Below are positions 460 to 63,397 of a stretch of 64,000 nt of DNA, in pieces; the stretch's first letter is position 1, and each line of letters starts with the position of its first letter. The notes under the pieces were generated by a model. The model was not told where the DNA came from and made no database searches. It saw only the letters and a program-made list of their open reading frames with translations. The position numbers were made by a program, and so were the translations under genes. This stretch comes from Mycosarcoma maydis (lineage: Eukaryota > Basidiomycota > Ustilaginomycetes > Ustilaginales), in the NCBI RefSeq assembly GCF_000328475.2, contig NC_026494.1:124001-188000 (forward strand), written 5' to 3'.

Positions 460-972
460 TGTGGCTGGTGCTGTATATGATGGTGCAAAGCGTAGCAGGC
501 TGGTGAGGACGTAGAAGCAAACGTAGTTATCTGGAGATGCACCAGTCACGAGTCGCAATGCACGACTGCGGGGGTGGTATGTGCGAGGCGTTTGCCTTTC
601 CGCTTCGTGCTTGTCTCATGTGGCAGCGACACGAGTCTGTTGGCCAAATCCGAGATACTTACGACTTGGGCAAACGCACAGCATTCGTGATTGTTGCCAC
701 GCTTTCGAGACAGTCTGTGAGTCACGGGACTCTCTCTCACTCGTGATTTGCTCGCCGCACTCACGACTGCCGCGTGGCCCGTCGTACATTCGTGATTCAC
801 GGATTTGCAAACTGCAGTTTGACGCATCTGTGCGGTCGCAATTAACTTATTAATATTACATTTTTGATTCACGATTCGTGATTGTCCGACCTTGAACGAT
901 ACTCCACAAGACAGACTCTGTGGTGATTCGAGCTCTGACGGGAGAACATGTTGTCATCTGTTGATTCACAGG
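460..972. other. Divergent promoter gap with heptamer motifs
   Basis: This gap lies between two divergent genes. No coding or RNA gene is visible. It contains exact ANT-CGTG-ANT decamers at 683-692, 788-797, 867-876 (reverse) and 874-883; the last two share an ATT. An AT-rich stretch (840-865) precedes the compound site. Confidence 0.7.
867..883. repeat. Compound heptamer site ATT-CACG-ATT-CGTG-ATT
   Basis: Two decamers of opposite orientation share the middle ATT. The trinucleotide is the same three times while the tetramer flips from CACG to CGTG. It lies about 90 bp upstream of the methyltransferase ATG. Confidence 0.8.
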
Positions 973-1956
973 ATGGCAATCACACTTGGCTCGATAGTCG
1001 GGCGCATATTCGAGACGCTATGTACGCTCCGATTGGTACCGTCGATACCTACACCGTTCGCGGATCGTCTAGCTTGTCTGGATGCAGCCGAGAGCTCGAT
1101 AGACAATGAGATGTACAGCACGCAATCCTTCGACTGGTCGCGTTCGGGGCTCGAGCTGCTCAACCCGGCGCGCGTAGGCTACTTTATGGACAAGCTTGAT
1201 CGTCTCGTCTCGTCTCTGGATCGATCACGAAACCATACGATTACGATCGTCGATCTGGGCTGTGGAGCTGGACTTGCCACTGAAGCGATCCACGCTGCTA
1301 TCATCCGGTCGGCGCGTGACAAGTGTTTGATCAAACACACAGACTCTGCGCTCTTCGACGCCAATGCAACCTACAAGCTGGTTGGGATTGATCGGTCGAC
1401 ACGCTCCATCGAGACGGCTCGAGAGCGTGCGCGGTCGAAATCGATGCAGATCGAATACGTCGTAGGAGACATCTACTCGTTGCCTTTCGCAGACGCTTCG
1501 ATCGATGCCGTTATCTGCTCGGACGTGCTCGAACACCTGTTCGATCTGCCAGCAGCATTCTCGTCCATCTCTCGCGTCTTGAAGCCCGACGGTATCATGT
1601 GCTTCGACACCATCAACCGCACAGCTACATCGTACTACCTCACGATTTGGATACTGCAAGACGTGCTGCGCGCCATGCAAGGCGATGCTCACGACCACAG
1701 GATGTACGTTACACCACACGAAGTACACACCGCCATGCAGCGCAACCGCCTGAAACCTGGCCCAGCCACAGATCTGGTCGGCATGAGACCCGGCATCAAT
1801 CTGCCACCTGTCGCCATCTACCGGCTCATAACCGGTGCAGGCTTCATCAACAGCGTGCTGGCCCAATTCCACTTGACCAATGACCTGAGCATTTCGTATC
1901 TGCATTGGTGTCGCAAGCTTCACCCGAACCACCAGCCGTTAGATCCTGTACACTAG
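973..1956 (+). CDS. SAM-dependent methyltransferase, UbiG/COQ3 type
   Basis: This is a class I methyltransferase of 327 residues. The frame is open upstream, but the first in-frame ATG is at 973. Motif I is DLGCGAG at residues 94-100. GIDRST follows as the acidic end of strand 2 that binds SAM ribose, then VVGDIYSLPF and an ICSDVLEHL core. The stretch FDTINRTATSYY and the following helix resemble the UbiG/COQ3 O-methyltransferases, which methylate polyprenyl hydroxybenzoate intermediates of ubiquinone. No clear mitochondrial presequence is visible on this start, so it may be a paralogue rather than the biosynthetic COQ3. It converges on ILV5. Confidence 0.75.
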   Translation: MAITLGSIVGRIFETLCTLRLVPSIPTPFADRLACLDAAESSIDNEMYSTQSFDWSRSGLELLNPARVGYFMDKLDRLVSSLDRSRNHTITIVDLGCGAGLATEAIHAAIIRSARDKCLIKHTDSALFDANATYKLVGIDRSTRSIETARERARSKSMQIEYVVGDIYSLPFADASIDAVICSDVLEHLFDLPAAFSSISRVLKPDGIMCFDTINRTATSYYLTIWILQDVLRAMQGDAHDHRMYVTPHEVHTAMQRNRLKPGPATDLVGMRPGINLPPVAIYRLITGAGFINSVLAQFHLTNDLSISYLHWCRKLHPNHQPLDPVH

Positions 1957-2220
1957 ACCCCCGTGCCAAACGCATGCACTGTCGCTCGCTTACCACGCAG
2001 ATCCTTCACAGTCAAGCCATAGAAAGATGCATTTCTAGCGCAACAGAGGACGCAACAGAACAGGAGGTATGGGGAAAGACGAAGAAGCGGAAAAATCATA
2101 AATGTACATTCGGATTGTCACCCCAATCAGAAGCGACGAACCGCGTTTTTGCTTTTTGTGATGGCCAAGCTCGGATCAACCCAAACCGAGCTTCGAGATA
2201 GAGCGGCGTGCAAATTTGGT

Positions 2221-3718: not shown

Positions 3719-5819
3719 TGTGATTTTTGTGTTGGTGCGGAAAAGGAGCTTGAGAGGTGGGTTGGTGTGTCTGGATGACGGTGATATAGTAGAAAGGAAA
3801 GGAAAGAAAAGGAAAGGAAAGGAAACGGTACGTGTGGGTTGGAAGAATCGAGTCTTTACGGACAAGCGAACGAGCGGACAGGCAAATAGGCGGAAAGACT
3901 CAGCGAAATCGACGGGGCAGAAGCCGAGGCCATAAAGGAGTGGCAGCTGCTCGTGAGAAAGCGGCGAGGCGCGCCAAGCGGAGACAAGAAGAAATGCTCG
4001 CCTCTGCTCGCTGTCTAAAGCGGAGCGGGCAATTCAGGACGACGCAAAACCTACAGCAGAGCGTTGACGGTTCTTGCTTTGGCTTTGCCCTCCCGACTTG
4101 GCTGCGAGTGAGTGCGAAGCTGCAGGCGTCGAGCTTGCGAGTGACTCTTTCGTGCGCCCTGTCATTCGTCCAAAAATCTTCACTCTGTTTGCCCCACTTG
4201 GTCTCTGGGCTCTGCTTTGCGTTCATGTGTGTGTTAGCCAGACCCTACGCGGAGCAGTCAATCAATCAATCAATCAAAAAAAGGCTCACTTAAGTTACTT
4301 GATTCAACCAGTTCTTCTCGAACTACAAAATTTCTTTTTCCTTTGTATTAACAGCTACAAACCACCAGTTGAGCTTGCTTACAATTTTCTTCACCACCTT
4401 TGATTTTTTTTTTGAATTTTTTTTCGTGTCTTCCAGCCAACCTGCAGACGAGTCATACACTTTGCTTTGCTCTGCGCTGGCGTGTGGTGTGCGTTTGGAT
4501 AATACATGATGTGATGATCTTCTGCTCTGTGATTGGATCGTTGGCGATGCCCGTTCAAGACACGCACCCGAGGTCGTACTGTATTTGCTGTGCTTGATAC
4601 TGTGTGATCAAAGAAGAGCAGCTACGGCCAGCTCTAGCTCGTTGAGTAAGTAGTGCTTACCTGTCTGGCAGTGTGGATAAATGCTCGGTTGGAGTAGCCT
4701 GCTCGTCGGCGTGTGTTGTGTCGTGACCAAGTTTGAGAAATCAGAAGATTCAGCACAAGATGGATCCACCCGGTAAAGGTCCGAGGTCTCGCCATCGTTC
4801 TCGTGACTTGTCTGGCTGCAGTCATGTTGAGATCTAATCTCCTCGTCGACGAATGAAATTTCGCGCATTCTTTCGAGTAACTTAGCATCACGAGTACAGT
4901 GTACTGTGGTGTGCCCTTTCACTCGCAACTGTCGGCTCTCGTGTTGCCTTTGTCTGTGTCGCCTCCTTGTGATTCGTGATTGGGCTAGCTTATCCCCGAT
5001 CAAAGGTGGCTTGTTGGTTGTTTCGAGATCGGAGGCCCCCCAGCTGCTTGCTGATCTCGTGCTCATCTACACTTGCCATTGGCGAGAGGGAAACAGCGAC
5101 GCGACACTCGTGACTGTTTGCGCAGAGCTGTAACCGCTCCGTGCAACGTCGACATTGTGATTGTTGACGCACTCTCACGATTAGCAACGAAGGGAACGAA
5201 CAGGAACAAACTGTATCAAGATTCACGCAGAAATAATCACGATCCAACAACCAAAAAACAGGCAAAGAGACCTGTCGATTGAGTGGGAAGAGGAAGATCG
5301 AGACAAAAAAAGAACTGCAGCACCTAGGATTCCCGCGTGGTCCCCCACCGCAGTACTGACTAGGCGACGACTTGCTTGACTGCGCAGATCGGACGGGATG
5401 CGGTATTTTCAAGTCTCTATGGCCGCAGATGATTCACACACGAATGAAGTAGGTTTATGTACTCCATTACAATCTAGTTCAGTGACATAGCAAGTCATGT
5501 TCTACTCAGAGACTACTGCTTTTACACGGAAAGGGAGTTGATATCATTCGTTCGCATATTGGGTATGTTGAAAGCGTCACTGTGTACAGAGGAGGCCAAG
5601 CTAGGCGCCAAGCAGAAAGATACATGCTGGTTGTCGCTCGCCACGGTTCAAAGCGCCTCCAGTCACGAGTCACGCGTTGGTTGAAAGGGAAAAACAGCAG
5701 AAAAAGAAACATGCCAAAACGTGTAGAGCCGGCGTGCTGGGCACCCTTTCTTTCCTAGTCTGGTTGGTTTGCAAGTCGAGTCTCTCCGGGAAAATAGTTG
5801 CTGCTTATGTGCAAACCGA
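3719..5819. other. 2.1-kb gap upstream of ILV5
   Basis: I see no convincing gene here. Near ILV5 there is a purine-rich (GGAAA) run at about 3791-3826, which would lie in the ILV5 leader or promoter, and a (TCAA) run at about 4258-4276. Heptamer-family decamers occur at 4972-4981, 5106-5115 and 5661-5670. The open frames are short, lack recognisable domains and run through the repeat motifs. Confidence 0.6.
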
Positions 5820-6899: not shown

Positions 6900-8436
6900 C
6901 TTGTCTTTAGGGGTGTTCGAGAGAAGCACTTGGTTACATTTTCCTCGAGTTAGAATGATGAGACGGTATATATGCTTTTTAGACGGAAGGCGGGGTTGAT
7001 AAAGGATCAGCAGTCAGATAGCGCCAGGCGGAATTGAGGACTCGTTGACTGAGCTCAGCTGCAGATATACTGGACACATTTTCCTGCATTCGTGATTACT
7101 TTTCGGCAGGGACTTGGGTTCTGCTGGGCTGTGGTCTCGTGCCCGGCCTTGGCTCGCTTAATGTGCACTTTGTCGCGTTTTTCTCGGAAACGGCGAGGAT
7201 CGTCACAGGACAGGCAGAAGAGCACTCACAAGTGCCTCTCTCTCTCTCTCTCTCTCTCTCATATTGAACATCGCGGTGGACTAGCTAGTCTCAGTTAGCC
7301 GAACCAAAGCATCGTCGCTGCCGTTCACACGCGTTTGGCTTGGCTTTGATCTGGTATTGATCTCTGTTCAACAGCGAGATCAGTTAGGTGCGGTGAGCGT
7401 AGGAATGCTTCGCCAAGGCTTTTTTGTTGCCGGACTGGTGCAATGCGATTCCGAGAGCAACAAAAGGTGCGATTCGATGGAAGCGATAGGAGAGTCGGCT
7501 GTGCACTTTTCGGCAATTCCCCGCATTGTGAAACCGGGGCGCGATTCTCATCCAACATCCATCCATCAGCCAAGGGCCAGGCACTCGGCTCTTGGTTGCC
7601 AGCTGTGCCGCTTTCTCATCCTCAGCATGCCTGTTAGAGCACGATCACAACGATACCAATATCGGTCACCTTCCAAGTTGAACATCATACGTCTTCAGTG
7701 GTCGTGCAAGAGGGCGAGAGATCGCCGAGACGCCATTTTCTGGAACACTGACAAAGCATAAAGCGTGGGCTGCATCTCATTACGTCAGTTGTACATGGTC
7801 GATGGCCTCGGTTGGCGGAAATTGGAGAAATCACGAATGGAAACACTGTCTTGCTTTTCCATGCAGGGAATCACAGAATAGGTCAACACCATGGCATAGC
7901 CCTAGTCGCTAGCGTGGCTGATCACAGCTCACATCGGGTTCCACCGGAAGCGGCTTCCTCTCTCTCCCGCTCCCAACTTTACAACAAAATGCAAAGTCCG
8001 GCAGGACTAGTAGGCGCCAAGACCAAGACCGTCATGCTGCACAGCAGAGACGCAGCCAAGGCTTTCCCCACCCGTAGCCACACCACACCACGCCACACTC
8101 CCAGTCGTGAAACAACGCTCATTCTGCCAACCATACACGTGTGCACTTCACGCCTTGGAGCTTACCGCGTTATAACTAGCGAACAGAGTCGGCTTTACAC
8201 GCTCTTTTCGGCCCACCAGCCGGCGGTAGACGATCGCACATGTCGCCGTTGCCTCGTGACCCGTTCGCGCCCTCGTTATCGTATTCGAAAGTGAGCCGTG
8301 ATTTTGGAGAGCCGTAATTTTGGATTCGAGTTTCGCCTAGATACGCACTCGACACAGCCTCAAAGACATAGATAGGCTCGGTTGCGTTGATGCGTTGATC
8401 TATCACACAACCTTGCATCATTCGTGATTGATTGTC
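6900..8436. other. 1.5-kb gap between two minus-strand genes
   Basis: No supported gene is visible. The gap holds a CT dinucleotide run (7236-7260) and exact heptamer-family decamers at 7088-7097, 7829-7838 and 8420-8429. The longest open frames (up to 160 codons near 7812-8294) show no domain or credible composition. Confidence 0.6.
7236..7260. repeat. (CT)n dinucleotide run
   Basis: About 12 uninterrupted CT units lie roughly 340 bp upstream of the SPFH gene on its promoter side. Confidence 0.9.
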
Positions 8437-10419: not shown

Positions 10420-10436
10420 AATCACGAATCGTGAAT
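10420..10436. repeat. Compound heptamer site AAT-CACG-AAT-CGTG-AAT
   Basis: Two oppositely oriented decamers (10420-10429 and 10427-10436) share the middle AAT. It lies 100 bp upstream of the PPX1-like gene on its promoter side. Confidence 0.8.
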
Positions 10437-10959: not shown

Positions 10960-10960
<1 letters not shown>

Positions 10961-11382: not shown

Positions 11383-11437
11383 AATCGTGAATCGTGAATC
11401 GAATCGGAATCGTGAATCATGAATCTGAATCGTGAAT
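11383..11437. repeat. Decaying AATCGTG heptamer cluster
   Basis: Four exact AATCGTGAAT decamers (11383, 11390, 11408, 11428) are interleaved with one-step variants such as AATCATGAAT (11415-11424) and AATCTGAAT. It looks like an older tandem array breaking down. Confidence 0.75.
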
Positions 11438-11792
11438 CTGAACTGTGAATGTCCGTCCACTCTTGACACTGCATCCTATACTGTACACCTGTGACAGCCC
11501 CGAGTTTTGTGTTCTGGCTCCGGCTATCAGGAACGCGATGTGTTCCGACATTCGTGATTTGACAATTGCACCATACCTCACTCACTTGACTGGCCGCTGC
11601 TAACCATACTCGTGACTCGTTCAGCTCCGCCCCATCTTTCCATTAGATACCTCCTATATCGGCAGCCGTCGTGGCTTCCCATCTTTTCTATTTACCGCAT
11701 CATTGCTGTCCAAATTTGCTTTCGGCTGGCCTCGATCCTGTTTTCTGTTCTTCACCAAATTTTTCGGACTACAAGCAGGATCCACTGCAACA

Positions 11793-16807: not shown

Positions 16808-17849
16808 TGTTGGGTTGAAAATGGCCAAGGGCGCGCAGTCTAAGGATATGTTTGTAGAAAGATGGAGTTTCGGTTGGTACCGTATCACTTATAGCGTTGC
16901 AGCTATAGAAAGGGTGAATGCGGGGACCAAGGAATCCTGAATCCTGAATCCTGAATCCTGAATCCTGAATCCTGAATCCTGAATCACGAATCACGGAATC
17001 TTGGATGAGAAATCGAAATTCGCGAGACTGGAGCAGCGTGGGGTAATAAATAATATCAGCCTCAAAGCCCGTCAGCCAATCCGATTTCGACGGTTTGTAC
17101 ATTATATATAAAAAAAGTCGGGGGTTATTTCGCCTCCACTCACGACTAAGCGTTGCGGAAGCGCATCAGCGGAAGTACGCCGCGTCAGTCAAGAGTCACG
17201 AGTGTCGTCTCTGGCTGTAGCGCTTCTCTCATGTGCCACTCGCGAAGGTGACTATCGGTGTCATCTGGTCAATCTCATCGCCTGGACGGTACTCGTGGGC
17301 TCAGCGTGCATGAGTAATTATGTTGGCTACAGGCGCTGAGCAAACACAACACGATCCAGACCGCAACAGCGGACGAGCACGGACAGACACGCCACTGCCA
17401 ACGCACTTTGTTCCGCTTGACTCCACATGTGCGCCGAACCGAGCCAAACCACATCCAGGCCAAGGATTAGCACGTTCGGCCACCTCATTTCAAATGCTAT
17501 GGTAAGTGGTATCTCAGCGAAGACCGGCTGAATCGCCAAATTCACGAATTGTCTGCGGGGAATCGTTCATCGGCTATCCAATCACCACACCGTCGTGAGT
17601 GTGAATTAGTCGCTCTGTCCACGTCGGCCGCTGACGGAGAAGGAGTCGTCGGGCGAAGCCTTTTCGCCGCTTGTGTTCCTTTTGCGCCTTTCAGATATTG
17701 TAACAAGACTCGAGATCTTACACTCGTGCTGATCCGGCGTGTGAACAACACAGGTGTGGCAAATTCATGGATAGGACCCAGAGACTTGCGGTTAATTCTG
17801 ACTATAGGCATAGATTATAATCACGATCCTGTTATTAATGATCATACAA
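16808..17849. other. Gap upstream of the cytochrome b2 gene, with heptamer repeats
   Basis: No protein gene is visible. The gap holds the GAATCCT tandem (16932-16980), heptamer decamers at 16982-16991, 17138-17147 and 17194-17203, and an AT-rich TATATATA-like stretch at about 17101-17116 that could serve as a promoter element. The tRNA gene begins at 17850. Confidence 0.6.
16932..16980. repeat. (GAATCCT)7 heptamer tandem
   Basis: Seven perfect copies are followed in the same register by GAATCAC twice (16981-16994). The second unit belongs to the window-wide ANT-CACG-ANT family, so the array changes unit sequence without changing period. Confidence 0.9.
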
Positions 17850-17959: not shown

Positions 17960-17963
17960 TACA

Positions 17964-17969: not shown

Positions 17970-19256
17970 GTCCATTCTCTGCTTCAGGGTCGCTTCGGCG
18001 TTGGGGGTGAGTTTTTTTTGGGGGGGGGGGGGGGGTAAACGCCATTCGTGATTGAATCACAGATGCTCGTGGCAATGATTACGCGCGGCTTACTGGATAA
18101 TATTATTATATATTGTGCATACAGTACATGCAGTTCTCTGCAACCAGTGCATTAGATAAGGTCGACTCGCTCGCGCGCACCAAAATCACGAATCGTGAAT
18201 GCCTCATCACGATTCAAGATAAGTTAAGTAAGCTCTTCGGAAAACACTACCAACACTGCCATCTCTTGCTTGCGTAGACGAGGATGACAGGGATCGAATA
18301 CGTCGAGAGACTGACCGAGTGCTATGATGGCAAACGCCAACAAATGAAGGCCAAGGCGAACGATGCAATCTCACCAAGTCTGCCTGTGCAAGGAGCTGTG
18401 CTTTGCTCACACGAGCAAGCTCGCTCGCCATTCGTCATTCGTGATTCATACCGGCGATTTGTGATTTGTGATTCCTGATTGTTTGGATTGTTGGTGATGG
18501 CGGGTACCGTGGGCTGACGATTTGCTAACTTAATTTGAATCGACTCGTGACTATCTAGGTGAATCGCGAATCGTGAGAGACTAACTCACAGTTGTGAGTC
18601 ACACAGTGTGGGTATGGGCTGTACTCGTGACTGCCAACGATCAGGTGCGTGATTTGTGATTGAATCAACTCATGACTGATTACAGAGGCAGTTCTGGTAT
18701 CGGACCCTTTATCGGTTTCTGTTTTTTTTTGGTGGGACAACGCAGCTGACCAGTGTACTGTACGCCGTGCTGTCACAAGGCGGACACCTGCCTCTACTGC
18801 TGCTTGGCCCACCCACGCGTCCTCTGATCATAGAACCCTTAACCTGCGGCGCTCACTCAGCTATGCTCTGCCACCATCTCCATCATCGATCTCTAACACC
18901 ATCTCTCGCTGGTCCATTGTCCCACCTTGATCCCCACTGCCTCTGCAAAGCCCTTCTCCTTCACCCTCAGCTACCCGTCACTCCTCTTCTTCTGTACATT
19001 CGAGACAGAGGCGATTGGTCGATCGGTTCTTATTGCTTACCTCCACAGCCATCGAGTTCTTCAAGCAACCACACCTACAATCACCTGTTCACATTCGATT
19101 CACTGATCTCGATCGAGCAACACCGGCTGTTTCTTCATTCAAAGCCTTTGCATCTCGGCACACCTTTGACTTTTGCCACCCTTTGCTCACTTGCATACAA
19201 GCCATTGCGTCGCCACCACATCTCACATCCCATCTAGCATCGCCTTTCTATGGAAC
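17970..19256. other. 1.3-kb gap downstream of the tRNA
   Basis: The gap contains a T8-G16 run at 18012-18035 and heptamer decamers at 18044-18053, 18184-18200 (compound), 18437-18446, 18543-18552 and 18623-18632. The last 400 bp are C-rich and CT-rich, like a leader for the next plus-strand gene. No gene is recognised. Confidence 0.6.
18020..18035. repeat. Poly-G run (16 G)
   Basis: An uninterrupted G16 directly follows T8. Length in such runs is often uncertain in assemblies. Confidence 0.85.
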
Positions 19257-21331: not shown

Positions 21332-22142
21332 CATCATCATCCTTCCGCGTGTCCATTCTGTATCAGCATTTGCGATCGATATTTTCAAGCTTGCTCATCA
21401 TCATCATTCGTGATTTGTTTTCTTTGTTTTCTCTTTTTGTTTTTTTTTTTTAAAAATCTGTTTTTGGTGTTTTGTTGTGTTGCCTCCACTCTGTGACTCG
21501 TGGTTCAAATAAGTTTTCGCATGTTGGTATCTTTGACGTCTACATCTTGCGTACCGCCGTGTCGAGTGGGTCCCGAGGAAGGTATTCGTGGTTGGGCGAT
21601 GCACTATTGTGTAAGCTGCAGGCAGCGCGTGGAAATCGGCTGCAGCAGACCCTGTCAGCCACAAACCGATCCAATCGTGAATCGTGAATAAGTTAACTTA
21701 CTGTATAGTTATTCGTGATTGTAAATTATTATTAAATAATGTTGATATTCACGATTAGGATCTCACTCACACTCGTGACTTTCGTGTCTTGTGTTTGGCT
21801 TGCACGTTGTGGGGAGTTCTTCCTTCAAACAGAATGCAAATGAACATCAAAATTAAAATCAAAAGAAAGACAATTCTCGAGGCGGCAATTGGCAGTCAAG
21901 CGTGAAGCCCAAGCCAAGATGCGTGAATGTGCATATGTCGATGGGCAACGAGTGCAATTGCACAAGCGCACGAGCCTGGTTGCGAACACACGGACAATGG
22001 TAGACACCATCGCTCACTCTTTCTTCGTTCTCGGTGTTTGATGAGCGTCCAGTTCATCTGTCCGATTTGGTAGGGGACATCGCTTTGCCGACCGACGATT
22101 GCGTCTTGTGCTGGTGTCGTTGCAGCTTTGTACACGTACAAG
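21297..22142. other. Gap with CAG repeat and heptamer motifs
   Basis: After the (GCA)10 run there is T-rich DNA (21416-21452), heptamer decamers at 21406-21415, 21673-21689 (two in tandem), 21711-21720, 21747-21756 and 21771-21780, and the palindrome AAGTTAACTT at 21690-21699, which abuts the tandem pair. No gene is visible. Confidence 0.65.
21301..21330. repeat. (GCA)10 trinucleotide repeat
   Basis: Ten perfect units are followed by four TCA/ATC units, just 3' of a stop codon. Confidence 0.95.
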
Positions 22143-23855: not shown

Positions 23856-24920
23856 TCCCATACACACCCAAGCTCACTCTAGCTGCTTACTAGATGCAAA
23901 ACGCCTGCGATGCTAATAGAAATTTGTTCGGTTCGTCGACACGCCTGACTACCTTGACGTCGAAGCGTCTTGCCAAACCTTCTGACCTTGCCACTACCCG
24001 CTTCAGCCCGATCCAGCTTGCTTTCCTGCTTGCTCTTGCACCACCGGACAAATGTACCGTTCAACACCTACTTGGCTGCTGGAACAGCACAGCTGATCAC
24101 AGTCAACGCTTTATTCATCGCGGTACAGAACCACCGTAAGGACGACTTGAATCCCTCGTCTGCCCTTGATGGTGACACCGGTCTGTTTTCTTCTAACGGA
24201 ACAGCTTCAGCTTTAAACATCGCGGATCATGAGTATGTCTCAGAGAGGTGGTACCGAGTGCCCATACACGATCGCCTTCTCAGGCATATCCGGGATGACA
24301 CATTGAGGTTCCCACCCACGTTAGAGAGGTCCGTCTGTCCGAACTCGATTGGTTCCTGGTGCCCTTCGGAAGCATCAAAACTAGTCTTAATGGGTGTCGA
24401 AGCGAACTGTTCGAATGGAAGCATTCTCATCGACTAGCTCGAAAGGTCTCATTGTCATCACTGGTGGGTGAACTGGAATTGTCAAGAAGTTGTCCTTCGA
24501 ACAAGGCACTAAGAAGACCAAACAGTGTTTTCCACGCTGATCGGATGCGCTGCTAGACTATGAATCACACCATGCCTCATCTCGCAGACTGATTCGCAAT
24601 CACCAATGTTGCATCAGGTAGCACATGAAGCGTTTTTTGCTGCATTTTGAATCCCTTACTCAAGAGCACTTGATGCGAAAGATGGCGTGGACGATGAGTC
24701 GAGCATCGCATATAGTAACAGATCGCCTCCGAGAGCGGGGAGCGCTCCAAACCCTGCATCGCCCAAAACTCTCAAAATCGCGTGAATCAGGCTGGTTTCG
24801 TGCTGAGTGCAACTTTTACCAAAAATCACGAATCTGTGAATGTAAGCACCCAAACCCTGTTTCGTACAATCTATCAGCACTTGCAACGGTTCCAGCTGGC
24901 ATCTGGCATCTTGAGCAACC
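23856..24920. other. 1.1-kb gap
   Basis: One 155-codon frame (23970-24437) lacks an ATG at its start and any recognisable domain. A single heptamer decamer lies at 24824-24833, about 90 bp before the next ATG. A decayed gene cannot be excluded, but I cannot support one. Confidence 0.5.
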
Positions 24921-26864: not shown

Positions 26865-27865
26865 ACGACTTTCATGTAATTTGGCATACATCTTTGTTCG
26901 GGGAACGCGCGACAAGGCAGCAACGTGTACGGCTGGCCTTACTCATACCAATTCGAGAGGAGTCAACCATTGCGTTTGCCGCCGAGACTACCTGAGCTAA
27001 TCTTATGTGGACACAGCATCAGTTGAAGCGGCACAACGATCACGGCAAAGCATCTTTGTATGGATGTTAGGCTGCACAGGGAGCAACTAGCAAAGCACCA
27101 TGATCACCTAAACGGCTCAGCACAGCACAATTCAAGTGAAGCAGAGTGAACGAATAGTAGTGGAAGTGTTAGTCTTGACCAGACAAAAGGCACCTCGTTC
27201 TTACGCAATCAAGTAACATCTTCTTTTCAACGTCGTGTTGAGACGATCCTTCTCCTTCCCGATCGCAGCTAGAATACGAGCTTGATGCTTCGCTTTGAGG
27301 TACTCACGCTTGGGATCATCGACGAGCGACATGAGCCGAGACCCAGTGAACTCGCCATTCGGATACGTCGACGCTGATTGCGGGCGGAGAAACGGTGTCG
27401 GGACAAGACCGTGCAAGAGCCGAACTGAGGTCAGAGAGATACGACGCGCTCTTTGTGATTCTCAGGGTCCAATCAACCGAGTTAAACAAGATTCTTTTGG
27501 AAAACTCCGACGGCTAAACAAGGAGCGCCGATTTTCAACCAGATCGGGCTGAACATGGATGCATAATCAAGATGAAAATATTGCCGTTTTCTTGCGCGGT
27601 CAAAAAGACCAAACTGAGAATTTACGAACTTTTGGAAATTCGTGATTCGTGATTGTTATTTTCGTGATTCACTCATGATTCACGACTCGTGACTGTGAAC
27701 CATGAATCCTTCCTCAAAAAAAATTAAAAATTTCGCTTTTGACACTCACACACTCGACAGTCACGAGTGCCTGAACCGTTCGTTGGTTGGTTGATCCAGA
27801 CTTGCCTGGCTTGCTCACTACCGGACCACCACCAGATCATCTGCCAACCCAGTGCGATCAAAAAC
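26865..27865. other. 1.0-kb gap with a dense heptamer cluster near its end
   Basis: No supported gene. A short minus-strand frame at 27201-27416 is discussed under rejected items. Heptamer decamers at 27638-27654 (two in tandem), 27684-27693 and 27759-27768 lie 100-230 bp upstream of RRS1. Confidence 0.6.
27638..27693. repeat. Heptamer cluster upstream of RRS1
   Basis: ATT-CGTG-ATT-CGTG-ATT is followed by degenerate copies and then ACT-CGTG-ACT at 27684-27693. The trinucleotide changes from ATT to ACT across a CACG unit. Confidence 0.75.
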
Positions 27866-28891: not shown

Positions 28892-29206
28892 GTGTCTCTT
28901 GCTGCTAGTTTCTCTTGCAATCTCAGCGTTATTATCGAGACCATCGAGAAGCATGCGCTTGTGATCGAGTTGGACAGCTTCTGAGTACGCACAGTTGCGA
29001 TGCACCGTTGCGATGCTTGATCTGATTCGAGAGTCGACGCAGTCCGTCTTGACAGTCACCAATCTCGCTTCTGATCGCAGGCTGACCGACAAATCTGCAC
29101 ACGCCAGCCACATGCATTCGTGATTCGTGATTCAGACACGGCAACACGAGTCATCCTTGAAACGGGCGTCCTGTGTATGCATTGATAAACGCCAACTGGT
29201 TCTCGA
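28892..29206. other. Convergent gap between RRS1 and PRP17
   Basis: It holds two overlapping ATTCGTGATT decamers at 29116-29132 and is the only one of the seven convergent gaps with exact sites. No gene is visible. Confidence 0.6.
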
Positions 29207-31216: not shown

Positions 31217-31537
31217 GTTCGTATCTCTCCCTCGCGCAGTTGCAAATGAGAGCACGTCGTTGTTGTACTATTGCGGATGCACAAACAGAGAATACCTGGT
31301 CGATGGAAGATCTGTTGGCGTGAAACTTAGCACCATTCACGATTCACGATTTGAGCTGCACCTTGGTGCTTTCTACTTGAAGGCTGTTTTTGTGGTTCCG
31401 AGTTCCGAGCCGTGAAACAAAATTTGAGAAAGGCTACCGCCACTCACCACTCACTACTCGTGACTCACACTTGCTCTTCTTTTTCCACAATCTACTCAGC
31501 CTGAGCTGTATCAAGGCAGTCGATTTCTGTTGCAAAC
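31217..31537. other. Divergent promoter gap PRP17/SGD1
   Basis: A 321-bp shared promoter region with heptamer decamers at 31335-31351 (ATT-CACG-ATT-CACG-ATT) and 31456-31465 (ACT-CGTG-ACT). Confidence 0.7.
31335..31351. repeat. Tandem heptamer ATT-CACG-ATT-CACG-ATT
   Basis: Two same-orientation units sharing one ATT, roughly midway between two divergent start codons. Confidence 0.8.
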
Positions 31538-36935: not shown

Positions 36936-37349
36936 CTTATGTGCCTCGGATCTTGGATAGAATACAGTGCAGCGTGGACGTAAGTGTAGAGAGGGTGTGG
37001 TGTCATTGACGAAAACAAGTTAGCTGAACACGCAAGTCACCTCATGACCTTTTTGCGCGAACCTTCGAAAAATTTGGCACAGAGTGGAGCAACTCCCGAC
37101 TCTTCCTTTCCGACTTCCGCGAATTCGTCCAGATTTAACATCTACCACTTTTGAACATGTGCCACACTCACGACTCCTGGCATCTGTGACTCACGACTCG
37201 TGACTGGGTGACTCTAATCTCAGATGCCAACGCTGCAAGTGGCGAGATGATCACGAGGCAATCAAGTTCTGGGGGGCGAGATCGATGAGTATGCTACATT
37301 GCAGATACAACTAGTGCGATACAAATACAAATCGTAACGCCAGCCCGGC
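36936..37349. other. Gap upstream of ROK1 with a heptamer cluster
   Basis: A 414-bp spacer between two minus-strand genes. ACTCACGACT sites at 37166-37175 and 37189-37198, the latter fused to ACTCGTGACT at 37196-37205, lie 230-270 bp upstream of the ROK1 start. No gene is visible. Confidence 0.7.
37166..37205. repeat. Heptamer cluster with ACT trinucleotide
   Basis: ACT-CACG-ACT, then ACT-CACG-ACT-CGTG-ACT. The trinucleotide is ACT five times, while the tetramer is CACG, CACG, CGTG. Confidence 0.8.
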
Positions 37350-39746: not shown

Positions 39747-41219
39747 AAAGTCGGTTCTCGAATCGAAGCTAGGTCTCACCGCCTGCCACCGAGACGACGC
39801 TGCGGCTTTTTACATGTGGCCTTGCGTCGAAGTTAGCCGCCATAATGGTCGCTTGAAGGAGCGCGTGAAAGTCGCACGAACAGACACGCGCAGACGTCGG
39901 AGATGGAGCCTGGGCGGTCAACCGGTTCGTTGTAGGAAGATCGGATGGACGAAGGAGTGGAAGTAGAGCCATGCTCAGTTTGGTGGCGGCTCGCTGGTGG
40001 AGAATCGTGGATTCTTGATTGTGAATCCGAAACACGCGTGACTGTACACGGTACGAAGCGAGAAGCACGAAGGCCTAAGTTAACTTAACACTTATCACGA
40101 ATTACGCGTGACACTCACAGACTCACGACTGACTCTGCTGCTCTCACATCTATTATATTACTAATCGTGAATAAGATACTCAGGGTGAGTCTGTGCCGTC
40201 AAGATGGGCCTGGAACTAGGTCGTGCATGCATGAGCGAACCCTGTCAGAGCCGAAGAAGCAGAGATCGCCATCAGATGCTACCGTTCAGATTCGAATTGA
40301 ATCGACCATGACGATGATCATGGCCCTGACTTTGAGCTGTCGTCCACCTATGCTTGTTGTTTGGCTCTGCTGCCGTCAAGAAAAGCTCTGATAGGTCCAT
40401 CAGGCAGAACCTGGAAGAGCGCGAGACCACTGAAGGTGCCATTGGAGCTGCCAGCTACGGTGTGCAAAATGAAGGACTCCGATTCACGTGGATAGATGTA
40501 GGATCGCAGCCAAAGTAGTCTTGATGATTTACTCACGCCTTACGCCCGATTCACAATTCACGATTTCACCTTGTGCACGTAGTGCACGTTTCAGTGCCCT
40601 TTACATAGTTATTCTGTGATTCACGATTGCTAACATTCACGATTCACGATTAGGCTGAGATTTATTGTGTTGATGCGGCTTCGGGAAATCACGATTGCAT
40701 GGCCCGAACCCACTCGCAGCCGATGCAGCTTGCTGCAGCTAAGTTGACTTAACCTTAGTTGAGCATCTTGGTATCAACCCCGACGCACCTAAGCTGCTGT
40801 GCTGCGGACGTGTCACGACTGTGCCTGTGCAGAAATCTCTTTCACCATCACCAATCGTGAATCACGGATCGCAAGCGTTGGCCGTTTCGACCAGGCTACC
40901 GCTTCTCAGCTGCGGACATTCGTGACTGCTTCTCGCCTGTTTACTCTCGACTACAATTCATCGCACTTTCCCCTCGAGGTGGTAATCGTGATTATCATTC
41001 CAGACACGGGCGTCGTCATCTCTTCCTTTCACCTCCAGCACGCTCACATTTGTGACGCCTGGTCGACACGTCTGGTTCAATATCTTGAAGGTATACAGGT
41101 GCACGCATTTGTGGTGAATCGCATCGTTCCTGGCGTTGCTTCCACCGGGTTGATCCGCGATTGAAACACACGCTCACTCCGTCGCAATCGCTCTTGGCCA
41201 TAAAGCTCAGCACTGCAAA
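39747..41219. other. 1.5-kb divergent gap with heptamer motifs
   Basis: The gap contains the palindrome AAGTTAACTT (40077-40086) and heptamer decamers at 40121-40130, 40163-40172, 40556-40565, 40619-40651 (three) and 40853-40862, between the F-box and kinase genes. No gene is supported; the open frames are short. Confidence 0.65.
40619..40651. repeat. Heptamer cluster, three ATT-CACG-ATT units
   Basis: Decamers at 40619, 40635 and 40642. The last two share an ATT. Confidence 0.8.
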
Positions 41220-44432: not shown

Positions 44433-45183
44433 GTTGCTCTTGTTCCTCTTGCTCGTTATCGTTACTTGCGTTCAATCACACCGATCCAAAGATTCCGCTA
44501 CGTGTTGGTAGTCATCCGCAATCCGCCGTCGCCTGTCTTGCCCGTGTCATCTCTCAACCCTGCCTCTCTCGCCTTGGCCCAACACACTCTCCCTCCAAAT
44601 TCCCTCCACCGCGCTAATCAGCTTACGTCATTCGCTTCTCACTTCCACGCCTTTCTTTCGCTTTCCAACTCGTCACTCACGACTGCGAACACGCGAATCC
44701 GCATTTTCGAAAATCATCCCATTCTACGCTCTAACACTTTGAGTGTTTCCGCTGGCCATCACGCATGTTTCTACGTTGCCACGTTGCTCGGCCTTAAAAA
44801 ACACAACCATGAATCCACATCAACACGAACCGGAACGTACAATGTGCATGTGACCAAGGCACATGAGTCCACTCACGACTGTGGCATTGGCAAAACAGAA
44901 ATACCGGTGACATATGAAACCCCGAGCAAGAGATAGAGCAATAAAAAAGGGAGCGCATCGCAACTGAGCGGACGAGGCGAACGAATGCGAGTATGCGAGC
45001 ATGTACCTGGACGCCAGAGGAGCCAGAGGAGCGAAGAAAGCGTACCAAAACAGCGCGGTCGGTCAAAGACGCGAGACAGACACGCTTGACGAACGCAACA
45101 TGTGCCACCACGCGTGAAGCGACCAAAGTGAGAGAAGCGTGAAGTACAACAAGCGTCCGAGCCAAGCTTGCGCGTGCGTGCGT
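44433..45183. other. Gap upstream of MBF1
   Basis: A 750-bp spacer between minus-strand genes, with ACTCACGACT decamers at 44675-44684 and 44871-44880. Pyrimidine-rich DNA near 44520-44660 may be MBF1 promoter or leader. No gene is visible. Confidence 0.6.
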
Positions 45184-48927: not shown

Positions 48928-51261
48928 GGTGAAAAGGGTGTGACGAGCGCGGAACGACGAACTGATGAGCGGGTCTGCGATCTTGGCGTCAAGAGGTAGG
49001 ACGGAAGAAAGCAGAACTGACGAAAGGCTGTTTGCTAGCAGCTGAAGGTCTTCATTTGGGAGGTACGACTGCGCGGTGCTGTGAAGCGTTGACGAGAATA
49101 GTCCAACGGAGCGAGTATCCGAGTCGAGTTGGGGGATGATGGATGCAGAAGTGGTGTCGCTGAAGGGACGTGGCGAGAAAGCCAAGCAGCGTGCGACGTT
49201 GGCAAACAGCTATCGGTGAGTGCAAGACGCTAAAGAGCGGCAGCCAAAGCGAAAGTGAAGCCAATGCCAAAGAGAGATTGGGTTTGCAGAGGAGTGAAAG
49301 AGTGCCAAGGGGAGAGAGAGGTGTGGTTGGTTGGAATGCTGCTAGAGTGCAGGCGATGTATGAGGTTGAGTTGTATATCGTACCTGGTCGGATGTGATCA
49401 TGGTGAGTCGTCAGATAGCGAGCAAGAGGAGAAAGGTGCGAGCGAGTCACGAGGCAGACCAACACGATCAACGACGATCGAGACGAGACACCGACCAAAA
49501 CCCAAAGTCACTCAGTTGTGAGCGCACTCGTGACTGAGTCGTGAGTCCGCCGGCTGAGCTGAGCCTTGTCAGCAAATACCAAAGAGAGCGCGAGCGCGAG
49601 CGCGGGCGGCGAGCTCAAAGCCTGAAATTGTAAATCGTAATTCAATTTTTAAGAAAAAAAAATATTTCTCCAAGAGACGACGGATGATTGCGTTTGCGGC
49701 TCTTGACTGGAAGCGAGCCGACACAAGAAATATCACGAGGAATTTAGGTTGTACTGCCGTGCCTAAGCCGTTTTTCCGAAGTTGCAAAAGTGACGAGTGC
49801 AACATTCACGATTCCAAAAATTCATAATTCACGATTGGCTTGCACGATCAGCACAAACACTTCATCTGCGATCGTGATGCAGCACGTCGCATACATCCGC
49901 ACCGCCGTCGCCAACTCCGCGTTTTCTGCCAAGCACCAGACCACCCAATTGTGAAGCGTGAATCGTGAAGCGTGAATCGTACATCGTCAAAAGCGTGAGT
50001 CTCTAGCTCCACCATCATCACGCTTACAGAAGCGCGCGTGGACGTTACATCGCTACCGTTCTAGACTTGACGTGCTCAGCCAATCAAGAATCCAGACGAG
50101 GCGGGCAGATATAGAACGCGCTCTCGGTGTGCCACTGTTTCCGTTTCCAAACTTGATAATCGCACAGCGCCGCGTTATTCCTGACTCACGACTCACTCGT
50201 GGCTGTGCAAGCCGTCGTACTAGATTTCACTGAATTTGTGACATCGACCGTGGACTCGTGACTGTGTCGGTCGGACGTGACGACAAGCGAATTCAAACAA
50301 GTTACCTCTCCACTGTACGAGCTACTAGTTAGTGCGGCGACAATGCACTAATTCAAATTACAATCACGAATCGTAAACGAACACGATTTTCGCGCCATCA
50401 AATCTGTGACTGGTTTCGGACCGAAAAGCGTCGGAAGACGACGTCGGAAAGCTGCTGAATAACAACCCATCTCGTTCTCGTTGCCAAGCAAGCGCTTGCC
50501 AAGGTATAAGCTTCAGATGCGACGACCCACTTGAGGCGCCTTTTTCCATCTCTGCTCTTGCTTTGTGAGGAGTAGACTCGGATCATGTCGACCGCAAAGC
50601 GTGAAACGTCGAAGCGCGTGAGACGCGTGAGACGGGTGAAACTCTTCAGGTCACAGATCATGCCCGTTCGAGTAATTCATGATTGTGAATGTCAATCGTG
50701 AACTGGTGACCTCCTGATCATTGAATCGCGAATGGGCTCGAGCCATCGTGAGTCGCCCGCAGCCGTCAAATCGAGCTGATGCTGTAGCGATCACTTCAAG
50801 TCTTTAAGTAATGCACTTGCACTCGGTGCAGCTGCGCCAACTCTGCGTCTCACTGGGTGATGAGACCTCAAGCGCTGTTGGTTTCCCACGCTTGCCCGAG
50901 CTTCAGTCACGAGAGTTGGGAGCGGTTGTCAAGAGTTGCTTGCATATATTGCACCGTGACACCAAAATACAAATCGTGAATCATGAATGCGCCAGCTAGA
51001 AAAGTCAATTGACTCTGACCCTGTTCCGTGTCTAGATTTGTAACCCAGTTGCAGCAACGCCGCAAGCCAAGCGTTTCTAAAGCTGTATAGCAGTACTTTG
51101 CGTCGAAATCAAGCAGGAATCAGTCCGGCCCGCGTGAAGCAGTTTCCGAGACCGACAGCCAAAGATGAATGCCAAGGCCGTCAGCGTCTGGCTTCGCCTC
51201 AACTGGTTTGGTCGCACGACTCACATACTGCGACAGTCACAATCGCGTAAATGACGCGGCC

Positions 51262-51356
51262 AATCGTGAATCGTGAATCGTGAATCGTGAATCGTGAATC
51301 GTGAATCGTGAATCGTGAATCGTGAATCGTGAATCGTGAATCGTGAATCGTGAATC
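51262..51356. repeat. (AATCGTG)13.6 tandem array
   Basis: Perfect heptamer tandem of 95 bp. It is the expanded form of the AAT-CGTG-AAT unit dispersed through the window. There are no unique spacers, so it is a microsatellite-like array and not a CRISPR. Confidence 0.97.
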
Positions 51357-52248: not shown

Positions 52249-52254
<6 letters not shown>

Positions 52255-56105: not shown

Positions 56106-56832
56106 CACGATCGAACAATCTCATCTGACAGACTCGGATTGCTTTCTGATACTGCTGCTAGCTACTCCGGTGAGTGGAGATGCGTAGCTGCCATTCGTGA
56201 TTGTTGTTAGGCAGCGAATGGTGGTGGCGATCGTGGTGAAGCGGAATCGTCGATGAGTGTAATTCGTGATTGGTGATTGTGGACCGTACAAAATTCACGA
56301 TTTCTGGACCCTTTTTTTTTCCCCCCGATTTACCCCTTCTTTTTCTTGGCCAAACATAATCACGAATGTACGATTGTACAGTAAGTCGCAGCTCGACGCT
56401 CGACTTGTCTCCTGCGGATGTGTCCCGCTCACCGCATTCTCTGCCGCTGTTGCTTGGCTGAAAGCGAACGCCAATTCAGAATAGTTGTTGATCAAGAAGA
56501 GAATCGTGAATGTTTCCGTCTTCGCACGAACACGGATGTGGGCGGTATCATCGTGCATGGCACCCACGAAATGATCCGAATCAAAATAAAGAAAAAGAAG
56601 AGAAAAAAAAAAGGGAAGAAAAAAAAACTGTAGTTGCACAGCGGTTCTCTGGTGTTTGGGCAGCGATAAAAGCACTTGAGAATTCGTGATTGGTGATTGC
56701 TTCAAGCTGATCAGTCACAGAGTGATGAGTTTGTAGTGAGTTGTTAGTTGCTTTGTACTTGGAGAGCACTATCGTGTATCACTAGTCACGAGTCGTGAGA
56801 GACTCTCACTGTGAGTGTTGTGCACGTTCACC

Positions 56833-56887
56833 ATTCACGATTGTGATTCACGATTCGTGATTCGACTCACCGACGCCAATCACGAAT
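56833..56887. repeat. Heptamer cluster with a flipped compound site
   Basis: ATT-CACG-ATT at 56833, ATT-CACG-ATT-CGTG-ATT at 56846-56862, and AAT-CACG-AAT at 56878-56887. Confidence 0.8.
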
Positions 56888-57035
56888 TCGTAATCACAGA
56901 ATCGCGAATGTTCTGACAATCCATCCCAATCGACCGTCATCATCCTTGCTCGAGTCTCTCCGGTACATAAGCAAAGTCTATCTGTCACTCGACAGAGTGC
57001 CTCGAACATCCTCACCCTTCCATTCACCGCTCTTG

Positions 57036-57160
57036 CTTTGCTTTGCTTTGCTTTGCTTTGCTTTGCTTTGCTTTGCTTTGCTTTGCTTTGCTTTGCTTTG
57101 CTTTGCTTTGCTTTGCTTTGCTTTGCTTTGCTTTGCTTTGCTTTGCTTTGCTTTGCTTTG
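57036..57160. repeat. (CTTTG)25 pentanucleotide array
   Basis: Twenty-five perfect copies, ending 81 bp before the transporter ATG at 57242. It is probably in its promoter or 5' leader. Confidence 0.97.
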
Positions 57161-57241
57161 CCTTGTTGCACGCTAGCTCGTTGGTTGTAACCCACCTTCC
57201 GATTCTTTGCCTCTCGTTTCGACCTCTTGTCGTTCCGTTGC

Positions 57242-60289: not shown

Positions 60290-60481
60290 GCTCCGTCAAG
60301 TGCTACTGGTTTCCAACAAGAGTTTCCACTTTGATCCTGAAATCTCAGCCTGGACAAGTTACACATGAGCGCATGAGCGCATGAGCGTTAGCGGACAAAA
60401 GCACCGAGACACACACAGAGATGAATGGAAGAAAAATGCATTCGTGATGGTGCGATGGAGGATTTCGGGACGTGTGGCGTG

Positions 60482-61783
60482 TTACTCGAGATCGTCGGGG
60501 GTGAGCTCCTCGTTGCCGGTATCAATGACGGCCTTACTGGGTCTCCAGACCATGACGATGTTGTCCTCGGCAGCGCTGGTGAGCGCCCACTCCATGTGCG
60601 GGCTCCAAGCGAGATCGGTGGGGCGGCTGGTGTGACCGCCGTGTACAAAGATGAGTTCCGGCGGACCGTCTTCTGCGTCGTCGGGGGTCTGTTCTTGACC
60701 AATCTTGCTGAGGTCCCAAAGGTTGACTCTTCGGTCGGCGGATGCGCTCGCTAAGACAGTGGCGTGGTGGGGCGACCAGCAGACCGACAGGATCTCGTCC
60801 GTGTGCGATTCGAGCGAGTGCAGTTTCACTTTGAGGTTGCGCAGATCCCATACGCCCACACTCTTGTCAGACGATCCGGTGACCAGGATGTTTTCGTTCT
60901 CAGGACTGAATGCTAGTGCGTTGACTTCACCCGTGTGCGCTTCGACGCGGTACTTGGGTGCAGACGCTGGCTCTCGGATGTCCCAGATGAGCAGCTGGCG
61001 ATCATCGCCCACCGAACCGAAGAGCGACTCGTGGTGATTGTGCCACGCAACATCTTCCACAATCGCAGTGTGCCCAGTGTAGGTCGCGCTAGGCTGAAGC
61101 GTGTTGTTGGGCTTTGTGTAGTTGTTAATGTCCCAGTGACAAACTGTCGTATCTTCGCTTGCAGCGAGAATATGGCCTTGTTTCAACGGCGACCAAGACA
61201 GACCGTATCCTTCCTTGTGCTGCCCTTCCAGGATGATATCCGGTCGACAGACGCCATCGGCACTCGGCGTGTTGCTGTGCTTGGTACGGTCAAAGATGTA
61301 CGTCTTTCCCGTCACACTTCGAGTGGCGATCAAATCGCAATTCTGAGGACAATATCTTGCCCTGTTGATCTCTCCGTCGTGGTTGATTTTCTGTACAATC
61401 GACAAACGGGCCGTGGTGGCCGAATAGCTTCCGATCTCGCCCTTGTCCTCGTCGTACTGTTTGAGATCTAGACGAGACTCGGCTGAATTCGATGCTCCAT
61501 CAGCCCCCGTAGTAGGCAGTTGCACTTGGGCGAACTGAAGATAGTTCTGGTCCTGACCCGATGTGTGCGTGCCGAGCAGTAGACGGTGCTGCGTGTACGA
61601 TTGACCGGCAGGCGACTCTTTGTCGGGTAACCACTGGCACGTGAGCGACGGCCATTCCAGCGCATGTGTGACGACGAGGTCGTACAGAAACGGAGAATTC
61701 TTCTTCCAGATCTTGTACTCTTCGTTTGAAAGCTTCTGCTGAGCAATAGCTGCTTCGTCCTCGACAAAATCCGATGCGTCCAT
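60482..61783 (-). CDS. HAT2: Histone-binding WD40 protein HAT2/RbAp48/Msi1 type
   Basis: The protein has 433 residues from the ATG at 61783. It has the N-terminal helix that binds histone H4 (LSNEEYKIWKKNSPFLYDLVVTHALEWPSL in outline) and the family strand LLLGTHTSGQDQNYL. Seven WD40 blades follow, e.g. YGLSWSPLKQGHILAASED, HTAIVEDVAWHNHHESLFGSV, ILVTGSSDKSVGVWDLRNL, and the last DLAWSPHMEWALTSAAEDN with a short acidic tail. Members serve in the type B histone acetyltransferase (with Hat1), in CAF-1, and in Rpd3-like deacetylase complexes; the sequence alone does not decide which. It diverges from a SET/NAP histone chaperone gene. Confidence 0.93.
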   Translation of the reverse strand: MDASDFVEDEAAIAQQKLSNEEYKIWKKNSPFLYDLVVTHALEWPSLTCQWLPDKESPAGQSYTQHRLLLGTHTSGQDQNYLQFAQVQLPTTGADGASNSAESRLDLKQYDEDKGEIGSYSATTARLSIVQKINHDGEINRARYCPQNCDLIATRSVTGKTYIFDRTKHSNTPSADGVCRPDIILEGQHKEGYGLSWSPLKQGHILAASEDTTVCHWDINNYTKPNNTLQPSATYTGHTAIVEDVAWHNHHESLFGSVGDDRQLLIWDIREPASAPKYRVEAHTGEVNALAFSPENENILVTGSSDKSVGVWDLRNLKVKLHSLESHTDEILSVCWSPHHATVLASASADRRVNLWDLSKIGQEQTPDDAEDGPPELIFVHGGHTSRPTDLAWSPHMEWALTSAAEDNIVMVWRPSKAVIDTGNEELTPDDLE

Positions 61784-63397
61784 CTTTGCAGTTGCAGTTG
61801 CAGTTGCGCTTCGCCTTGACCGGAGCGGTTCGAGAGCGCAGCCGAGTGAAGCGTAGAGCGCTTGCTGCTTGTGCGCGTTGTTGGTATCCAAAGTGCAAGC
61901 CAATGGCGAAAAGGGCAAGCAGAGTTGCTAGTGGAAAGCAGGCAGAACGAGATGTTGGCAACCACAGAGAGACAAGCCGAGCGTGTGTGGTGGAGGCGAG
62001 CGTGCAATTCGCAATTCGCGATTCACGATTGTGAATGTAGAGAGCTCCGCCAGCTCCGCCAGCTCCAGCTTGACCTGCTTGGCCTGCTTTGCTCGTCTGC
62101 GCGTGGCTCGACCTCGAACTTTAGAAACAATCACGAGTGCCTCGAACGCGCAACACGCTTAAGAAGAACCACGGAAAGCGCAAAGGTCCGCAGCAGCCGC
62201 CGCCGCCCAAAAAAATGTAATAGTCGACGACAGCAGCCACAAGCCAAAATCCACAAGCAGCCGTCAACGCGCTGGAATCGTGAATCCATTCGTGATTCAC
62301 TCGGAGTTGCAGATGCAGTGTATTTCTCGCACGAATGGATGCGAGATCGACGGCTCCGCGTCGCGTTCAGTGGGTCCGTCACCGCTCACCACTGCACGAC
62401 TCGTGACGCCTACGCACGACTGTCTCGCAGCATGACCTAACACTTTGCAGTTTCCTTTGTGCTTCGTGCTTCGTGTCGGTGCTTGGTCCTCATGCCTCCA
62501 CACGCTCGCGAGTTGCTTCGCTCTACCTGCTCTTTAGCATGTACTTAGCTTCTGCGTCTCCTTCGTTTCCTCGTATCACGTGTTACCTTTTTAGCCATTT
62601 CGTGCTCTTGAGCGTACGAGTGACGAGTGTGGCTTTAGTAGCTTCTGTCAGCCTCGGCTGCAGAAAGTTTTGTTGGCTGATGTCTTACGTCTTGCTGCTC
62701 TTTCATGGATCGGCTGCTCCAGCTGTTGTTGCGCAGCAGATTCAGGACCAAGGTGCTGGAAGATCAGGCTTCCTCCACCACTACCTTCTCTTCTCCCTCT
62801 CAGCCCTCTTAGCTGTGTTCCTTCTCATCCCGGTGTTACTTGTCGTGGCTCTCACTACATATGGCAATTTATTTTTTTTGGCGAGAGCGAAAGGTGATAT
62901 GCAAGCACGAAGACCACGGATCACGGCTTACGGATGCGTCCGTGCGGTGTTGGATTTCAGCGTTCGTCGCTTGCCACCCTAGAAATTTTCATCGGCGCAC
63001 AGACGTGCAGGTAGAATAGCACTTGACTGTGACTTTTTCACTGAGCTCCACACCGCATGTTTCGAGTTTTTCTTTTTTTGTTTTTCTCTTTTTTTTTTTT
63101 GGGTCTCTAAACGCACAATTATTTTTTTGCGAGTCGTGTGTGCACCGAATCACCAACGCTCAAGGAAAAGAAAAACGCGGTATTCGTGATTTGCTGCCAA
63201 CTTGGAAGAAACGTTTTATTCGAGATTCACGAATCTGAGATTTTTTTCTCTTCCAATTTTGAGCTGAAACGGATGGATATCAAGGCGAAAGCTGTGATAG
63301 CTTTGATCTGACCCATCATCTCATCAAGCTCGTACTGGTTGCTCGTGCTTCTCCCGTCCACCATATCACTCGTGCTTCTAAGAACATCTGCCTCAAT
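61784..63397. other. 1.6-kb divergent gap between two histone chaperone genes
   Basis: Heptamer-type sites lie at 62014-62030 (ATT-CGCG-ATT-CACG-ATT), 62276-62285, 62288-62297 and 63182-63191. A T-rich block (63070-63110) and a hydrophobic but ATG-less frame (62473-62982) are also present. No gene is supported. Confidence 0.6.

Follow-up and report, generated by a model that had tools for sequence, protein, structure and literature searches.

How did a single decamer come to be scattered over the whole of a 64,000-nucleotide stretch of the Mycosarcoma maydis genome? The stretch (C17:124001-188000, contig NC_026494.1; hereafter the window, which includes 100 undetermined bases) is dotted with units of the form ANT-CGTG-ANT, in which both flanking triplets carry the same free base N. 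We conclude that each unit is almost certainly a 7-bp insertion, a scar made of a constant 4-bp core (CGTG or CACG) and a 3-bp duplication of the target. With a probability of about 0.6, these scars are the excision footprints of a cut-and-paste DNA transposon.

Abundance of matched units

Decamers of the form ANT-CGTG-AMT, with N and M free, were counted on both strands of the window and of a comparison stretch, C1:500001-700000 (200 kb), which together represent 264 kb, and in the whole genome (19,664,356 bases in 27 contigs, 19.66 Mb). The same decamers read backwards provided the reversed control. In the window, 113 decamers were found, of which 105 were matched (N=M) and 8 unmatched. The matched units, which extended from position 544 to 63191, comprised 46 AA (13 of them inside an array at 51262), 16 CC, 11 GG, and 32 TT. 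A preliminary description of the window had reported such a window-wide pattern and counted, by hand, 33 AA units outside the array, 15 CC, 10 GG, and 32 TT, with fewer than ten near-misses. These numbers were nearly exact (33, 16, 11, and 32 computed, with the 8 unmatched decamers), and its proposal that a free base is copied to the other flank was borne out by the diagonal in both stretches (105/113 and 257/280). Off-diagonal pairs were far from being as common as matched ones (8/113 in the window and 23/280 in the C1 stretch, which contained 257 matched and 23 unmatched decamers). Over the 264 kb, 362 matched decamers were thus obtained versus 31 unmatched, and the reversed control gave 2.

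The whole-genome count that the preliminary description had called for returned 27,565 matches to ANTCGTGANT, with N and M free, versus 262 for the reversed control, an excess of about 100-fold. Extrapolation of the local diagonal share (92%) suggests about 25,400 matched units genome-wide. Chance or an assembly artefact has a negligible probability as the source of the pattern in view of this excess and of the same rules holding on the C17 window and on C1.

CACG was by far the strongest of the 4-bp cores with a 3-bp flank duplication (460 instances versus 64.6 expected), and the next-ranked cores were shifted registers and decay products of CACG. Other cores were enriched between equal ANT triplets in the window and the C1 stretch (GTG/CAC, CTGTG/CACAG, CG, GC, and CAG/CTG). 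They might be variant scars, other elements or short repeats, which could not be told apart.

Filled and empty sites, and chains of units

Copies of a long terminal repeat (LTR) enabled filled and empty sites to be compared. The LTR was taken from a 4-kb fragment (L051) beside a copia-like element, and complete or partial copies of it occur at more than 20 places. Fourteen LTR sequences were compared: the reference, seven diverged copies (L052 to L058), and the 91-base ends of six others (L070 to L075); L059 was left out of the alignment since its match is inside the element rather than in the LTR. Copy L053 reads GCCAAG-AAT-CGTG-AAT-CATCACGG, where L052, L071, and L073 read GCCAAG-AAT-CATCACGG, with 1 difference in 19 bases. 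At this site, 11 of the 13 other sequences fit the empty form within 5 of 19 bases, the resident triplet being AAT in six, AAC in four, and GAT in one. Genome-wide, 18 LTR copies fit the empty pattern, 4 with AAT and 14 with AAC.

Three further sites displayed the same arrangement. ACT-CACG-ACT in L054 corresponds to a single ACT in five other sequences (4 differences in 19) and to CCT in L052. AGA-CACG-AGA in L055, one or two bases off, corresponds to a single AGA in L057 (2 differences in 19) and to AAA in four others. L052 contains AAT-CGTG-AAT, where the reference, L053, and L057 have AAT once (4 to 5 differences, the left flank being changed). Two cases are tentative. In L055, TAT-CGTG-TAT lies beside other differences, and ATT-TGTG-ATT of L054 resembles a decayed scar. 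No scar was present within the 91 bases read of each of the six other LTR ends. Three paralogous pairs in the DNA examined and the direct repeats near one copia copy were uninformative. Thus, the gain of 7 bp, the copying of the resident triplet, and both core orientations were each seen directly, and the triplet was duplicated on both sides of the core in the filled sites and present once in the empty ones for AAT, ACT, and AGA.

The 264 kb were then decomposed into chains, in which copies of a single triplet are linked by CGTG or CACG cores. Among 380 chains, 96 had a non-ANT triplet, part of these by chance, and 284 had ANT (236 single, 40 double, and 8 longer). In the two-unit chains, the two core orientations, F and R, were combined in all ways (FF 11, RR 11, FR 7, and RF 11), so that 18 of the 40 carried opposite cores with the same triplet. 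Where three ANT triplets were joined by two cores, a single triplet was used throughout in 78 of 85 cases, including 21 of the 23 with opposite cores. Opposite-core junctions numbered 1,787 genome-wide (971 CACG/CGTG and 816 CGTG/CACG; controls 0), and, among the matches listed, all on C1, 82 of the 92 distinct places of the first type and 79 of the 93 of the second (161/185 together) had the same triplet three times. In single units, the orientation of the core was independent of the triplet (76 vs 81 and 42 vs 37 by triplet class).

These chains bear on the possibility that the units are a heptamer microsatellite, (ANTCGTG)n, born and decaying through replication slippage. Perfect arrays do exist, such as the 13 units at 51262-51355, and 4,617 same-orientation junction matches were found genome-wide, every array step being counted. 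However, slippage cannot flip the core while keeping the triplet. Triplet and core are therefore independent, indicating that the triplet comes from the target and the core from the insert. The single head-to-tail orientation expected of a microsatellite was not observed, since 18 of 40 doubles and 1,787 junctions were mixed; single units formed 236 of the 284 ANT chains, and the empty sites contained no repeat unit. A slippage origin is therefore improbable. Mixed chains and filled and empty sites led us to reject pure slippage as the origin of the units and to retain it for array growth only. The preliminary description had also viewed the unit as a heptamer repeated with a copied base: the copying holds, and the plain repeat does not, because both core orientations occur within one chain. 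The following units of the window illustrate these arrangements.

544..63191, unstranded, whole field of 105 matched units in both orientations, none inside the 21 open reading frames (ORFs) of at least 200 amino acids
683..692, + strand, single ATT-CGTG-ATT
867..883, unstranded, two-unit ATT-CACG-ATT-CGTG-ATT, opposite cores, same triplet
5106..5115, + strand, single ACT-CGTG-ACT
7829..7838, - strand, single unit, N=T
10420..10436, unstranded, two-unit AAT-CACG-AAT-CGTG-AAT, opposite cores
11383..11399, + strand, two-unit AAT-CGTG-AAT-CGTG-AAT, opening an imperfect period-7 stretch (11383-11450)
17540..17549, - strand, unmatched decamer, N=T and M=A
18184..18200, unstranded, two-unit AAT-CACG-AAT-CGTG-AAT, opposite cores
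21673..21689, + strand, two-unit AAT-CGTG-AAT-CGTG-AAT
24824..24833, - strand, single unit, N=T
27638..27654, + strand, two-unit ATT-CGTG-ATT-CGTG-ATT
29116..29132, + strand, two-unit ATT-CGTG-ATT-CGTG-ATT
31335..31351, - strand, two-unit ATT-CACG-ATT-CACG-ATT
37189..37205, unstranded, two-unit ACT-CACG-ACT-CGTG-ACT, opposite cores
40635..40651, - strand, two-unit ATT-CACG-ATT-CACG-ATT
40918..40927, + strand, unmatched decamer ATTCGTGACT, presumably a unit with one copy mutated
44675..44684, - strand, single unit, N=G
49526..49535, + strand, single unit, N=C, followed by an N=G unit at 49537-49546
51262..51355, + strand, (AATCGTG)13 AAT, 13 units in one orientation, an expansion, probably produced by slippage from an insertion-born seed
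56846..56862, unstranded, two-unit ATT-CACG-ATT-CGTG-ATT, opposite cores
63182..63191, + strand, last matched unit of the window, N=T

Other repeats were noted alongside. A perfect heptamer array, (GAATCCT), occupies 16932-17000 of the window (about 7.7 copies) and adjoins a CACG unit at 16982; it resembles a scar whose core had been altered (to CCTG) before slippage lengthened it. A near-perfect pentamer array, (TTGCT), of about 27 copies (57033-57165) shortly precedes an ORF of 1015 amino acids (57242). Near the end of C1, two identical 856-bp copies (C1:8503-9358 and 9459-10314, spacing 956 bp) each harbor the same scars.

Location, targets and decay

Relative to ORFs, which were called mechanically and with introns ignored, the units were located almost exclusively outside long frames: those of at least 200 amino acids contained 7 of the 257 units of the C1 stretch, four of these seven lying within 140 bp. 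Outside such ORFs, the window contained 4.3 units per kb and the C1 stretch 2.7. Long ORFs were thus far sparser, and not of the equal density that would have spoken against the preliminary description. In the interval from 100 to 800 bp, the upstream side of ORFs was richer in chains (144 in 39.5 kb) than the downstream side (49 in 24.7 kb). Few chains were located less than 50 bp from an ORF start (3 in 3.8 kb), and beyond 800 bp the densities on the two sides were similar (1.7 and 1.6 per kb).

Outside ORFs, 8.5% of (C/G)A(A/T)T(C/G) sites were filled, compared to 4.3% of (C/G)A(C/G)T(C/G), 3.2% of the remaining ANT sites, and 0.07%, chance matches included, of non-ANT triplets. The preferred target, (C/G)ANT(C/G), is symmetric, as it would be for a dimeric enzyme. 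Since the core itself supplies a flanking C or G, each scar offers two fresh ANT targets. The ratio of double to single units was 0.235 (19 to 81); a hand calculation that ignores decay and assumes two new targets, each filled at 8.5%, predicts about 0.19. Thus, chains need little besides repeated hits, with slippage for the long arrays.

Decay was tallied per instance, CATG (29 instances) being its own reverse complement. The 264 kb contained 362 exact and 296 one-mismatch units (2 and 39 in the reversed control). At successive positions of the decamer (1 to 10), the instances with one mismatch numbered 33, 15.5, 24, 59, 53, 18, 29, 19, 15.5, and 30, compared to 0.5 to 7 per position in the reversed control. 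Mismatches were thus most frequent at the two CpG positions (59 and 53) and ranged from 15.5 to 33 at the eight others. The free base was kept no worse than other bases and no position was protected: non-exonic scars decay without visible constraint. Relative to the reversed control, a rough estimate is that about 5% of non-CpG positions have been substituted since insertion and that there were some 50,000 original events genome-wide. For dating by two-mismatch neighbours, control words ranged from 461 to 1369.

A lineage-specific transcription-factor site or a chromatin signal under selection, both of which the preliminary description had suggested, would fit the non-coding location and the density biased upstream of genes, a bias that is also expected from insertion into open chromatin. 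However, apart from a faster CpG, the ten positions accumulated substitutions at broadly similar rates, it is not evident what a protein would gain from a free base that is matched, and the scars were private to single LTR copies among those read. This explanation is very improbable, and the transcription-factor site was rejected on the ground that no position was conserved clearly above the others.

Origin of the insertions and comparison with known systems

In the mechanism that we propose, the element would insert through a 3-bp staggered cut at ANT, as the 3-bp duplication implies, preferably within (C/G)-ANT-(C/G). On exit, the transposase would cut four bases inside the ends (5'-CACG...CGTG-3'), and the broken ends would keep 4-nt CACG tails. 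These tails could pair only at the outer C:G, and repair of the central mismatches to either strand would leave CACG or CGTG with equal chance. This would account for what the filled and empty sites show, a target that has gained CGTG or CACG between two copies of its ANT, giving ANT-CGTG-ANT. The presence of the core in both orientations in equal numbers fits imperfect annealing of two identical 4-nt CACG tails. Repeated hits on fresh targets would build the mixed-orientation chains, some of which would be lengthened by slippage, and scars in exons would mostly be lost, because an insertion of 7 bp shifts the frame. Footprints of Sleeping Beauty follow a related logic, with CAG or CTG between TA copies. 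They are mostly canonical in some cells and non-canonical in others, according to PMC3770610.

Insertion with target duplication is established by the LTR copies; the excision step is what we infer from it, and several observations weigh against it. Independent repair of the two mismatches was rejected, since it would also yield CATG and CGCG, and such mixed products were not seen: CGCG occurred between same triplets in 5 cases and between different triplets in 7, and the CATG excess (27) did not go beyond what is predicted from CpG decay (TGTG and CACA excess, 35). Both mismatches would therefore have to be repaired to the same strand. It is surprising that so many excisions should leave no stranded copies of the element. 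A scan of about 288 kb for terminal inverted repeats yielded no element that combined CACG...CGTG ends with equal flanking ANT; it returned 16 pairs, 3 of them with equal flanking triplets (two in one heptamer-rich stretch at C1:519269 and one with CGA). Matches to DDE_Tnp_4 were limited to three in the genome (C2:1202128-1202598, in a 311-amino-acid open frame, C7:3319-3738, and C20:144343-144525) with no shown link to the scars; they may be remnants of a transposase or a domesticated gene. Neither Plavaka nor Transposase_21 was matched in the genome, and their controls were likewise silent. That the ORFs were called mechanically, with introns ignored, also counts here. Finally, a fourth-order Markov background gave a higher expectation and a smaller one-mismatch excess at the outer positions, and no protected position; this model was trained on the same DNA and is inflated by the units, and the observed column double-counts positions 2, 5, and 9. 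DDE_1 had 13 matches in the genome.

One further pair of inverted repeats (L048, C1:673298-676863) is possibly a relative of the source element. It spans 3.57 kb, and its inverted ends of about 300 bp are 86% identical and start with 5'-CACG. ATT precedes CACG in both ends and in a third partial copy (C1:675623), the sequence further out being different, and may be part of the repeat itself. Two properties of this pair add to the objections: its outer triplets on one strand are ATT and AAT, so that a direct 3-bp duplication fails, and its longest open stretch is 249 codons. Copia fragments are located inside it (C1:675071-675506).

An alternative is insertion with target duplication by something other than transposon excision, which we consider unlikely though credible. 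An endonuclease might leave 3-nt 5' overhangs at ANT, with repair adding a constant 4-bp CGTG, or very short fragments of transposon ends might undergo abortive integration. In its favour are the insertion and duplication seen in the LTR copies, the high uniformity of the core, and the failure to establish a source element. Against it, a constant core that occurs in either orientation points to a fixed inverted-repeat end, and we know of no ordinary end joining that adds the same four bases every time. Also unlikely though credible is that these four bases are written into ANT, with target duplication, by a process in which no conventional transposon passes through. If true, this would be the shortest insertion 'element' known to us, with about a tenth of the best targets hit, and it may still be active. 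The very short selfish repeat proposed in the preliminary description was the nearest of its readings; what the data show is insertion with target duplication and not a decamer copying itself.

The M. maydis genome is nearly repeat-free. An estimated 25,000 or so intact 7-bp insertions would make up about 1% of its length; they are denser upstream of genes and probably too short to be caught by repeat maskers. They record insertions at single-base resolution, making target choice, exon loss, and repair outcome readable. An apparent motif, easily taken for a promoter element, thus becomes a mutational signature, and the enzyme behind the scars a concrete, testable target.

Among the matches listed, titles and abstract beginnings in the open-licence literature, a scope that excludes most subscription papers, contained no description of these units. 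A smut paper contains the motif inside a primer for Ustilago maydis (PMC2219887); this primer had no exact match in the genome. Ten stretches of (AATCGTG)3 were found in ten IMG/VR viral contigs (L060 to L069), with 3/3, 4/4, 4/7, 3/4, 3/4, 3/3, 9/16, 9/16, 4/7, and 4/7 matched over total decamers per contig. Since these decamers are few and mostly form one array per contig, they were not taken for the same phenomenon; some may be iteron-like.

Comparison with known systems places the units as follows. They share period 7 and some long arrays with heptamer microsatellites, and differ from them by mixed core orientation, a dominance of single units, and empty sites devoid of the repeat. CACTA (EnSpm) elements generate 3-bp duplications, have ends starting with CAC, and usually leave variable footprints. 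The duplication and such ends would fit the scars, whereas the variability would not, and Transposase_21 was silent here together with its control. PIF/Harbinger elements usually duplicate a 3-bp TWA and excise mostly precisely. The length of the duplication fits, and the DDE_Tnp_4 matches belong to this comparison, but the ANT sequence is not TWA-like. Sleeping Beauty-type Tc1/mariner footprints, TA-CAG-TA or TA-CTG-TA, resemble the scars in having a flanking target duplication, a few end bases between its copies, and either strand after mismatch repair. They differ in that the scars have a 3-bp ANT with a free N in place of TA and a 4-bp CGTG/CACG core. Thus, although they match no named superfamily tested (Tc1/mariner, Harbinger), the units work like the footprint of a cut-and-paste excision.

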